Source: Serratia fonticola
GTDB lineage: Bacteria; Pseudomonadota; Gammaproteobacteria; Enterobacterales; Enterobacteriaceae
NCBI RefSeq assembly: GCF_001006005.1
Contig: NZ_CP011254.1
Location: 5,022,001 to 5,086,000, forward strand
Direction of reading: 5' to 3'
DNA length: 64,000 nt
Shown: in pieces, positions 13,494 through 54,352 of the stretch
Layout: every line of letters starts with the position of its first letter
Position numbering within the stretch: the first letter of the stretch is position 1
Program-made: the position numbers and the translations under genes
The notes under the pieces: model-generated
Seen by the model: only the letters and a program-made list of their open reading frames with translations
Databases searched by the model: none
What the model was told of the DNA's origin: nothing

Positions 13494-13581
13494 TTACCGA
13501 GACAGACGTTTCGCAAGCAATGATGTAGTACGAAGGGATCTAGCCGATTCCCAGTAAATAGTAGTGAACCATGATCATCAT

Positions 13582-13666
<85 letters not shown>

Positions 13667-13712
13667 TCTTCTCTTCAGCCACTAAAATGAAATGTTGTTC
13701 AGAGTTTCATTT

Positions 13713-13804
13713 AGCACTGAAGGGGAAGGATGAGAAGCTTCGACCAAGGTTCGAGTCCACATAGCGGACAACGCGCTTGCGCGGTAATCCTTCTCACCAC
13801 CACC
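13713..13804 (+). repeat. Degenerate tRNA-3'-end repeat, unit A
   Basis: Lies between the two tRNA-Tyr genes. It holds a T-arm-like AAGGTTCGAGTCC and ends in CCTTCTCACCACCACC, mimicking the tRNA-Tyr 3' end. Its core is nearly identical to unit B (14026-14117), including ACAACGCGCTTGCGCGGT. It resembles in layout the 178-bp repeats of the E. coli tyrT operon. Confidence 0.8.
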
Positions 13805-13892
13805 GCAACTGTGGCAAGAGAGATGGATGACTCAGTAGTACCAGAGAGGATTTGCCAACTTTCTGTTCAAAATTAGCAACCATGAATACCAT

Positions 13893-13977
<85 letters not shown>

Positions 13978-14025
13978 TCTTCTTATAGACCTCCTCAGTT
14001 TTAAGTCGTCATCTCATTCCCATAC

Positions 14026-14117
14026 AGCACTGAGCAGGGAAGGATGAGAAGCGTCGACCAAGGTTCGAGTCCACACAGTGGACAACGCGCTTGCGCGGTC
14101 ATCCTCCCCACCACCAT
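14026..14117 (+). repeat. Degenerate tRNA-3'-end repeat, unit B
   Basis: Near copy of unit A: shares AGCACTGA, GGAAGGATGAGAAGC, AAGGTTCGAGTCCACA and ACAACGCGCTTGCGCGGT, then ends CCCCACCACCATC like the mature tRNA. The about 48-base tail after the second tRNA (13976-14023) is repeated after unit B (14114-14161), so the block arose by tandem duplication of tRNA 3' end plus tail. Confidence 0.8.
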
Positions 14118-14158
14118 CTTCTTATAAGCCTCCCAGTTTTAAATCATCATCTCATTCC

Positions 14159-14210
14159 CATGTACCACCGAACCAAATAGCTGCCCCTTATTGTGCTACA
14201 GGTGGAAGTC
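14159..14210 (+). repeat. 52-base direct repeat, copy 1
   Basis: Begins CATGTACCACCGAACC and ends GGTGGAAGTC. It is identical to 14434-14485 except for one C/T difference. After copy 1 comes 114 bases of palindromic element ending GTC; after copy 2 that segment is absent. Confidence 0.9.
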
Positions 14211-14332
14211 ATACAGAACGCCGACACGCCGTAAACCCGTCCCTGGGGGCTCGCAATCGCGCATCCATGCGCTCAACGGTCGGCTAACCTGCATTGACTC
14301 CCACCGGTCTCAAGCTTAGGTGTCGCGGTATA
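14197..14332 (+). repeat. 136-bp dispersed palindromic element, copy 1
   Basis: From TACAGGTGG to CGCGGTATA. The reverse complement of 54172-54307 matches it at about 90% by eye, with two single-base indels. Nested stems are shared: an outer arm (perfect in copy 2), CGCCGAC/GTCGGC, GCGCA-N4-TGCGC and a CCC/GGG hairpin. No open frame or transposase is present. It could be a non-autonomous mobile repeat or a structured RNA domain. Confidence 0.85.
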
Positions 14333-14433
14333 AAACACTATGACTCAGACAACTAGCCTCATCTTTACGAAGTCATCCTCCCCGCCACCATCCTTGCATA
14401 CCCTTCACAGACTAAATATTTCCGTCAAATCAT

Positions 14434-14501
14434 CATGTACCACCGAACCAAATAGCTGCTCCTTATTGTGCTACAGGTGGAAGTCGCGGTATAAAACACT
14501 A
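14434..14501 (+). repeat. 52-base direct repeat copy 2 with deleted palindromic element
   Basis: Repeat copy 2 runs straight from GGTGGAAGTC into GCGGTATAAAACACTA. The same right flank follows copy 1 only after 114 additional bases. The joint lies at a GTC shared by both ends, as expected for deletion (or its absence before insertion) between short direct repeats. The residual element is 14472-14493. Confidence 0.85.
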
Positions 14502-14619
14502 CCTGGTTTCATCTCTATGAAGTCCTCCTCCTCACCACCATCGCAACATCAATTCCCCTTGAACTAAATCCCGCAATTCGCTATACCACTGGCTTCGTTA
14601 AAAGCAGCAAGGGAAAGTC

Positions 14620-15192
14620 ATGCGTAACAACATTTGTATCTTTTGTGGTGCCAGCGAGGGTAATAATCCAGCCTATGTCGAACATGCCCGCCAACTAGGT
14701 CATCTGCTTGCCACCCAAGGGCGGCGTCTGGTGTATGGCGGTGGTAAAAAAGGGTTAATGGGTGTGGTAGCAGACGCGGTACTAGAGGCTGGTGGTGAAG
14801 CAATAGGCATCATTCCCCAACGGCTGGTCGAGGCCGAAACGGCGCACCGTGGCCTGACCGAGCTGGAAATCGTCCCCGACATGCACACCCGTAAGGCGCG
14901 GATGGCCGAACTGGCCGACGGTTTTATTGCCTTGCCTGGCGGCATCGGTACGCTGGAAGAGCTGTTCGAAATCTGGACCTGGGGGCAGATCGGTTACCAC
15001 AGCAAGCCGGTCGGGCTGCTGGATGTTAACGGTTTTTACCACCCGCTAAGCCAGTTTTTACAGCACGTCGCCGATCAAGGTTTTATGCGACATGATTACC
15101 TCAAGACCCTGCATATCAGCGATTCTCCGGCAGCCTTAATCCAGCTGTTTGATGACTATCAGCCGCAGAATTACGACCGTTGGGCGAAATAA
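14620..15192 (+). CDS. LOG-family (TIGR00730) nucleoside 5'-monophosphate phosphoribohydrolase-like protein
   Basis: A 190-residue single-domain Rossmann protein. It shows IFCGASEG at the N-terminus, [12 protein letters not shown] near 38-49, and the signature [12 protein letters not shown] near 107-118. LOG proteins cleave the N-glycosidic bond of (cytokinin) nucleotides; the bacterial substrate is often unknown. It lies directly after the tRNA-Tyr tail and before xthA, with AAGG 11 bases before the ATG. Confidence 0.88.
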
Positions 15193-38310: not shown

Positions 38311-38397
38311 ATTGATGTGGTAGTGTCGATATCGCTTGTCTGCTCCGGTCTACACCATCATCGCTATTGCAAGTTTCAACCACACTACCCAGTCACA

Positions 38398-38610
38398 TTA
38401 CATTGCTGTAACGTTAACTGCTGATGGGCCTTTGGCGCCATTTTCGATGCTGAATTCAACCTGCTGGCCTTCATCAAGCGTCTTGTAATCATTACCCTGG
38501 ATTGCAGAGAAGTGTACGAACACGTCTTTGCTGCCATCAGCAGGAGAAATGAAACCAAAACCTTTACCAGCGTCAAACCATTTTACTAAACCAGTCATTT
38601 TATTAGACAT
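38398..38610 (-). CDS. CspA-family cold shock protein
   Basis: A 70-residue single cold-shock domain. RNA-binding motifs RNP1 (KGFGFISP near 16-23) and RNP2 (VFVHFSAI near 30-37) are intact. The family member cannot be fixed by sequence alone, but a cold box and long leader point to a cold-induced CspA/B/G-type paralogue rather than CspC/E. GGAAG lies before the ATG at 38608-38610. Confidence 0.95.
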
Positions 38611-38790
38611 AGATACTTCCTTCATTGTTTTTTTAGGCCGCCATAATGGCGAATGAGGTCTGCAATTCAGTGGAAACTTATGGGGGCACTAGAAGGAAAT
38701 TCGCGGAAGAAGAGGTATCTGTCGGATATCGCTAATACTGAGAACTACTTTACTAAAACTGCTTTCATAAGGTCTGTACTTCAAACCGAT
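38611..38790 (-). promoter_or_regulatory. Long csp 5' leader with cold box
   Basis: TGAAGTACAGA at 38783-38773 (minus strand) matches the cspA cold box TGACGTACAGA at 10 of 11 positions. In cspA the cold box lies at the start of a leader of about 160 bases that refolds at low temperature; here it is about 165 bases before the ATG. A promoter TTGCTA-N18-TAAATA lies just upstream. The 38611-38969 gap holds nothing else that I can support. Confidence 0.7.
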
Positions 38791-54149: not shown

Positions 54150-54171
54150 GCCTACTGCCCAGACGGCCTTT

Positions 54172-54307
54172 AATACCGCGACACCTTAAGCTTGAGACAG
54201 GTGGGAGTCATTGCAGGTTAGCCGACCGTTGAGCGCAGGGATGCGCGATACGAGCCCCCATGGACGGGTTCACGGCGTGTCGGCGTTCTGCATGACTCCC
54301 ACCTGTA
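54172..54307 (-). repeat. 136-bp dispersed palindromic element, copy 2 (inverted)
   Basis: Reverse complement of the element at 14197-14332. Terminal arms ACAGGTGGGAGTCA (54197-54210) and TGACTCCCACCTGT (54293-54306) are perfect. Internal stems GCCGAC/GTCGGC, GCGCA-GGGA-TGCGC and GAGCCC/GGGTTC would give a branched fold. It lies 22 bases past the universal stress gene stop and fills most of a 203-base gap. No open frame. Confidence 0.88.
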
Positions 54308-54352
54308 ACACTATTCGATACAGCTACTTAGTTTATTCCCACATACCATCGC

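Follow-up and report, generated by a model that had tools for sequence, protein, structure and literature searches.

A palindromic repeat of Serratia fonticola is dispersed with a conserved structured core and may carry a dual CsrA/RsmA site

Two copies of the element and their surroundings

Is a palindrome that occurs twice, about 40 kb apart, in one piece of a bacterial genome a mobile repeat or a structured RNA, and does one of its strands matter more than the other? The question is raised by a stretch of 64,000 nucleotides of Serratia fonticola (contig NZ_CP011254.1, positions 5,022,001 to 5,086,000; hereafter, the window), in which a 136-bp palindromic element had been predicted. By BLAST, 14197-14332 and the reverse complement of 54173-54307 were 93% identical over 135 bases (E 3.3e-50), in line with the likeness of about 90% in the original prediction. 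The perfect terminal arms of copy 2 (ACAGGTGGGAGTCA/TGACTCCCACCTGT) and the nested stems, GCCGAC/GTCGGC and GCGCA-TCCA/TCCC-TGCGC, were likewise found in the sequence, and the claim that there is no open frame agreed with the listed open reading frames, none of which overlapped copy 1 (lengths of 80 aa or more listed) or copy 2 (100 aa or more). The repeat is real but was understated; the common unit is about 165–170 bp by BLAST extents, and conservation among 20 aligned copies of the own genome passes the reported ends, reaching roughly TAGCTG in one direction and roughly GCGGTATTAA in the other. In the following, the strand reading CGACACGCC is called the TCC strand and its complement the GGA strand; copy 1 had been read on its TCC strand, so that its GGA strand is the opposite one. 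The features in the window are as follows:

14171..14335, minus strand (the strand with the GGA loops): copy 1 of the element, 5036171-5036335 on the contig by BLAST extent; placed by BLAST extent and the alignment of 20 copies
14236..14247, minus strand: hairpin 1 of copy 1, hexaloop 14239-14244, AGGGAC; sequence, loop list and fold
14259..14272, minus strand: hairpin 2 of copy 1, hexaloop 14263-14268, ATGGAT; sequence, loop list and fold
14434..14510, minus strand: internally deleted remnant, the left end of the element fused to its right end; repeat D4 and reading of the sequence
54163..54332, plus strand (the strand with the GGA loops): copy 2 of the element; BLAST range and the alignment of 20 copies
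54233..54246, plus strand: hairpin 2 of copy 2, hexaloop 54237-54242, AGGGAT; sequence, loop list and fold
54257..54268, plus strand: hairpin 1 of copy 2, hexaloop 54260-54265, ATGGAC; sequence, loop list and fold

Copy 1 has two tRNA-Tyr genes upstream and a gene with Lysine_decarbox and LDcluster4 domains downstream, and copy 2 is flanked by convergent genes for a universal stress protein (Usp) and a CxxCxxCC-domain protein. Both copies had been expected to lie where they would be transcribed; this fits copy 2, of which the strand with the favoured fold is sense to usp, but not copy 1, of which that strand is antisense to the tRNA-Tyr operon. The remnant at 14434-14510, the third trace of the element in the window, lies within a stretch of the tRNA operon tail that is duplicated (direct repeat D4, 14159-14210 versus 14434-14485, 98%), and its deletion junction is at a shared GTC. 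A promoter and terminator scan of 13500-14700 gave results near the shuffled expectation, with no terminator called on the element; there was no T-run beside the element stem in the sequence of copies 1 and 2, and no Rfam family reached its gathering threshold on the element. Separately, the two tRNA-Tyr genes were found to lie in a 106-nt direct repeat (97%; 13567-13983 and 13709-14116), each followed by an RtT-like repeat that scores under the gathering threshold of 45 for RF00391 (35.2 and 24.4 bits), and a cspA thermoregulator RNA (RF01766, 220.5 bits) was found at 38395-38790 on the minus strand.

Dispersal and distribution

BLAST at E <= 1e-3 placed 20 matches to the element along the own genome (6,000,511 bp, one contig), spread from 0.38 to 5.80 Mb, 18 of them beyond the two copies in the window. 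In seven genomes of the genus, the number of copies, counted only from BLAST rows that cover the element at E <= 1e-10, was 20, 19, 13, 3, 2, 0, and 0. The exact 32-bp core pattern was present in at least 120 stretches of GTDB genomes, and the genera among the matches listed were Serratia, Xanthomonas, Lysobacter, Arenimonas, Pseudomonas, Halopseudomonas, Rheinheimera, Arsukibacterium, Oceanisphaera, Zobellella, Marinimicrobium, and Cellvibrio. The core consensus runs variable arm-CGAC-ACGC-CGT-RAA-hairpin 1 (YCCR TCCN TGGR)-GGCTCG-hairpin 2-ACG-GTC-variable arm', in which hairpin 2 is a variable stem around TCCN. A covariance model built from 10 equal-length rows (A2 and R1) matched 49 of 274 sampled genomes of Gammaproteobacteria and 38 of 148 genomes of the order; since scoring covered 14 to 28 candidates in each genome, the copy numbers from these surveys are minimum values. 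In a phylum sample, 19 of 299 genomes were positive, each being the own genome or labelled as of the same family, order or class, although the share of the sample outside Gammaproteobacteria is not stated. The Serratia version matched no plasmids or phages, and the exact core pattern occurred in none of the viral contigs; weak matches of miRNA families to Xanthomonas copies were taken as hairpin noise. The original prediction had been staked on there being more than two copies in one strain and on covariation of the stems; there are many copies in many species, and the stems covary, as described below. Dispersal and a conserved structured core are close to certain.

Occupancy was compared by searching with the flanks of 10 of the 20 own loci, and 19 regions were aligned at seven sites. 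One site (L016) carries the element in the own genome and in L210 but lacks it in L207, L208, and L209. The element stands there at the 3' end of a coding sequence, and the filled genomes are without the last codons present in L208 and L209; in L207 the last codons are missing although the element is absent. Because the gene ends differ, the site may include a scar, and L207 may carry that of a lost copy. Another site (L003) was filled in the own genome, L221, and L222 and empty in L219 and L220; between the three orthologous copies, the inner segment and the whole element are inverted, and the own copy is bordered by the inverted repeat TATCCTGCTGACTTGAGG/CCTCAAGTCAGCAGGATA. At three further sites (L006, L017, and L004), the gene end of the element-free relatives is occupied by unrelated sequence, some of it hairpin-forming. 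At the seven aligned sites, the flanks were too diverged for a clean target duplication to be read, and neither a partner transposase nor a recurrent useful neighbour gene was found among the loci examined. Of the predicted alternatives, a MITE-like mobile repeat or a structured RNA, each is backed in part, the first by the dispersal and the varying occupancy and the structured one by the covariation, whereas a target-site duplication and a transposase were not found.

Candidates for a partner were also considered and rejected. The one large cluster of neighbour genes was read as spurious ORFs across the arms. An inverted pair 2 kb apart in G134 was dismissed as an autonomous element, with no transposase seen between its members; the long ORF inside it is presumably that of a secretion ATPase. 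The Y1 transposase domain (PF01797) was present in 39 of 49 element genomes versus 143 of 225 others, and RAYT was ruled out as a required driver because the domain is missing in the remaining 10 of the 49, including G069, G073, G079, and G239 with 12–15 scored copies. The own genome has three PF01797 matches, which are taken as IS200-like, judging by their scores. For 24 core pairs less than 600 bp apart (from 100 searched loci), the arrangement on the TCC strand was convergent in 20, divergent in 2, and direct in 2; read on the GGA strand, close pairs are thus mostly divergent. Such pairs, 33–331 bp apart, were observed at L022, L026, L035, L038, L039, L063, L067, L096, L103, and others, with five alternating copies at L038 (Xanthomonas).

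The favoured strand and its GGA loops

In the A2 alignment, the given structure paired 86.5% of cells, compared with a mean of 63.9% after shuffling and 33.5–46.8% in slid versions. Double-sided changes were found at 25 pairs (88 cells), and each of five covariation measures was reached by none of 500 shuffles and lay above the slid controls. The pairs changed on both sides belonged to the outer arms and hairpin 2 in 24 of the 25 cases and to hairpin 1 in one, with none in the inner CGT/ACG helix. Covariation in the long arms could also come from template switching in palindromes and, therefore, is no proof of RNA. Across 28 elements that were under 75% alike, mismatches in the arms of the GGA strand were 51 G.U versus 8 A.C, compared with about 48 and about 29 in the swapped-arm control (Fisher p 0.002); by element, 20 leaned one way and 3 the other, with 5 ties, these counts, like those of the folds below, not being independent because the elements share ancestry. 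The RNA fold of the GGA strand was more stable in 27 of 28 dereplicated elements (mean 8.8 kcal/mol), that of its core alone in 25 of 28 (mean 1.9 kcal/mol), and that of the own copies in 17 of the 17 scored, which are those of the 20 caught by the script's pattern. With DNA energies, the same strand was favoured in 24 of 28 (mean 3.3), so that single-stranded DNA is a possible form beside RNA. The folds of copy 2 and copy 1 had z-scores of −5.8 and −2.5, respectively. Taken together, these predicted energies and mismatches indicate that the GGA strand is likely favoured as a folded single strand.

On the GGA strand, ANGGAN was present in both hairpin loops of all 20 own copies, which had been picked by BLAST independently of any loop pattern; C-G closes both hexaloops in 19 of them, and the loop starts are 23–24 nt apart. 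The most variable of the 62 scored core columns were the N2 positions of both hexaloops, followed by one column in the linker before hairpin 2, and N2 was C in 2 of 134 elements (hairpin 1) and 3 of 109 (hairpin 2). Hairpin 2 is the fairer test among the 134 distinct elements because the pattern that fetched most loci fixed hairpin 1; it kept ANGGAN in 109 of the 134 and in 21 of 28 after dereplication, leaving 25 and 7, respectively, without it. In 35 of 44 predicted folds, both GGAs were mostly free of pairing, and the fetched G196 and G403 copies had ANGGAN at both loops in 10 of 10. The strand preference and the loop motif are new here; the loop motif, which lies on the strand opposite to copy 1 as first read, had been missed in the original prediction.

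This arrangement resembles binding sites of CsrA. In the parts of PMC7652899 available to us, the SELEX consensus is given as RUACARGGAUGU, with an ANGGAN hexaloop, CsrA bridging is described for sites 10–63 nt apart, best above 18, and very stable structure is said to possibly disfavour binding. All 20 own copies show ANGGAN hairpin loops and two sites within this range of distances. The genome G403 (5.0 Mb) belongs to the same family and has YPAL-like copies; 5 of its 9 exact matches to RTACARGGATGT fell in hairpin 1 of an element on the GGA strand, compared with none for the reversed control pattern; the five are closer to one event than to five because copies within a genome are related. 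As far as sequence goes, the G403 relative is thus an exact match to the SELEX consensus. In seven other genomes, 1 of 11 matches was inside an element, and the control gave 2.

The occurrence of CsrA itself (PF02599) is uninformative because 45 of 49 element genomes versus 190 of 225 others shows no real contrast. The element genomes without a CsrA hit were G008, G069, and G100 (67–88% complete) and G196, a draft in 270 contigs (98%), of which six fetched copies keep both loops despite the lack of a hit. With respect to genes, the own copies were sense in 6 cases, antisense in 5, convergent in 4, and divergent in 1, and the foreign copies were sense in 20, antisense in 23, convergent in 24, and divergent in 18 (85 scored), the count leaving out 36 places at an edge or too far away; no orientation bias toward neighbouring genes was seen in the own and foreign copies scored. 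On this sequence evidence, the chances that RNA of the element would bind CsrA are about even. Neither a link between CsrA and YPAL nor a unified class-wide family was found among the top matches listed from the open-licence part of PubMed Central, where the printed core strings led only to unrelated papers.

Interpretation and comparison with known systems

We propose that the element is a dispersed, non-autonomous short repeat of YPAL type. Its conserved core would function in single-stranded, folded form, with RNA the most likely molecule and one of the two strands the relevant one. The GGA strand is predicted to form a junction with two hairpins, the ANGGAN hexaloops of which, about 23 nt apart, would have the form of a dual CsrA/RsmA site. 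Where this strand is transcribed within 3' untranslated or read-through RNA, copies would bind CsrA dimers and might serve as scattered small decoys or as 3' modules that respond to CsrA, the element itself being spread as DNA by some machinery. Counting against it are the random orientation to genes, the loops kept in G196 without a CsrA hit, the TCC-strand model of Ysr224, the elements in which hairpin 2 lacks ANGGAN, the stability of the stems, and the strand asymmetry that DNA energies show as well. We hold the chances for and against this explanation to be balanced.

A rather unlikely but serious alternative is that the element is selfish palindromic DNA moving via one defined single strand, with the two hairpins and their identical loops as the docking site of a transposase and the match to the CsrA site a coincidence. 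IS200/IS605, REP, and integron attC elements move through one defined single strand. The random orientation to genes, the prevalence of one arrangement among close core pairs (20 of 24), the strand asymmetry that also appears with DNA energies (24 of 28) and the loops kept in G196 without a detected CsrA would fit such DNA; yet the loci examined have no neighbour gene in common, 10 of the 49 element genomes lack the Y1 domain, and this alternative alone does not explain why variation falls on the free positions of the CsrA hexaloop.

It is improbable that the element serves as a 3'-end structure, a large hairpin that ends transcripts or protects RNA 3' ends on either strand. The unrelated hairpin-like sequences at the same gene ends of element-free relatives (L006, L017, and L004) and the position of copy 2 between convergent genes speak for it, but the scan of 13500-14700 gave no terminator on the element and no T-run stands beside the stem, 18 of the 85 scored foreign copies lie between divergent genes, and fixed loops with changing stems would be left unexplained. 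Still more doubtful is the view that these are old, inactive copies of the known YPAL repeats, with the structure a relic of the palindrome and the arm covariation due to template switching. The element is related to YPAL, and the arm flips and near-perfect arms at L003 fit an exchange between arms; however, strand-symmetric template switching is not expected to yield the strand asymmetry of mismatches and folds or invariant loops beside free positions, and copies differ between close relatives.

Returning to the proposed CsrA-binding mobile repeat, its broader form would be that YPAL and its relatives constitute one class-wide mobile superfamily in Gammaproteobacteria, carrying a ready-made dual CsrA/RsmA site with lineage-own arms around the same core, for which we consider the chance to fall slightly below even. 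If this is true, an insertion burst would equip a genome with dozens of decoys for CsrA or 3' modules responsive to it and so link the Csr/Rsm lifestyle switch to the transposon load. A core that is a CsrA site would offer one testable reason for its recurrence across the class despite the turnover of the arms. Genomes would then be expected to hold many CsrA ligands that no list includes, and titration of CsrA would be harder to estimate from CsrB/C or RsmY/Z alone. Repeats of this type are commonly classed as MITEs that lack a partner protein, and Ysr224, although listed among the 20 most prevalent bacterial sRNAs, has no mechanism attached to it in the accessible portion of PMC9029176.

Ysr224 (RF02770) shares the core, its model being on the TCC strand whereas the GGA strand is favoured here. 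At E <= 10, it gave 18 matches in the own genome, all of them copies of the element, and missed 2 of the 20 copies. The best score, 30.7 bits, is below the gathering score of 70, and 9 of 14 control genomes also gave weak matches, none over the cut-off; single weak scores, therefore, mean little, and the evidence lies in the coincidence of all 18 places. Ysr224 is reportedly expressed from several copies in Y. ruckeri, the strand not being stated in the sections of PMC12112432 at hand. Like CsrB/C and RsmY/Z, the element has GGA in ANGGAN hairpin hexaloops and two sites within bridging distance, a likeness drawn from sequence alone; unlike them, it is a dispersed repeat with no recognised promoter and only two sites per copy. 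It shares dispersed palindromes and close inverted pairs with REP, REPIN, and BIME sequences but is much longer, has no RAYT requirement, and has no GTAG tag in its conserved core.

A close likeness is that to YPAL/RU-2 of Yersinia, which is described as palindromic, intergenic, multicopy, and about 167 bp long (De Gregorio 2006, as excerpted in Delihas 2007), compared with about 165–170 bp and 20 copies for the palindromic, intergenic, and dispersed Serratia element. When aligned on the GGA strand with the core of copy 2, RU-2/YPAL scored 34 (500 shuffles: mean 15.7, maximum 24); the score was 32 with copy 1, equalled by 1 of 500 shuffles, and 105 with a G403 copy. Both have two hairpins with NGGA loops each, whereas their arms and ends differ, and insertion near dyad symmetry, noted for YPAL in the material seen, recurs for the Serratia element at L003. 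YPAL target duplications are 3–26 bp in the extract of PMC2229807, versus none read at the seven aligned sites here, where the flanks are too diverged. YPAL copies number 2 to 144 per Yersinia genome and 3 in E. coli, according to the passages seen of PMC2847712; the wider family of the Serratia element extends beyond the Yersinia of YPAL to many gammaproteobacterial genera, and we regard the element as a real class-wide, YPAL-related dispersed repeat.
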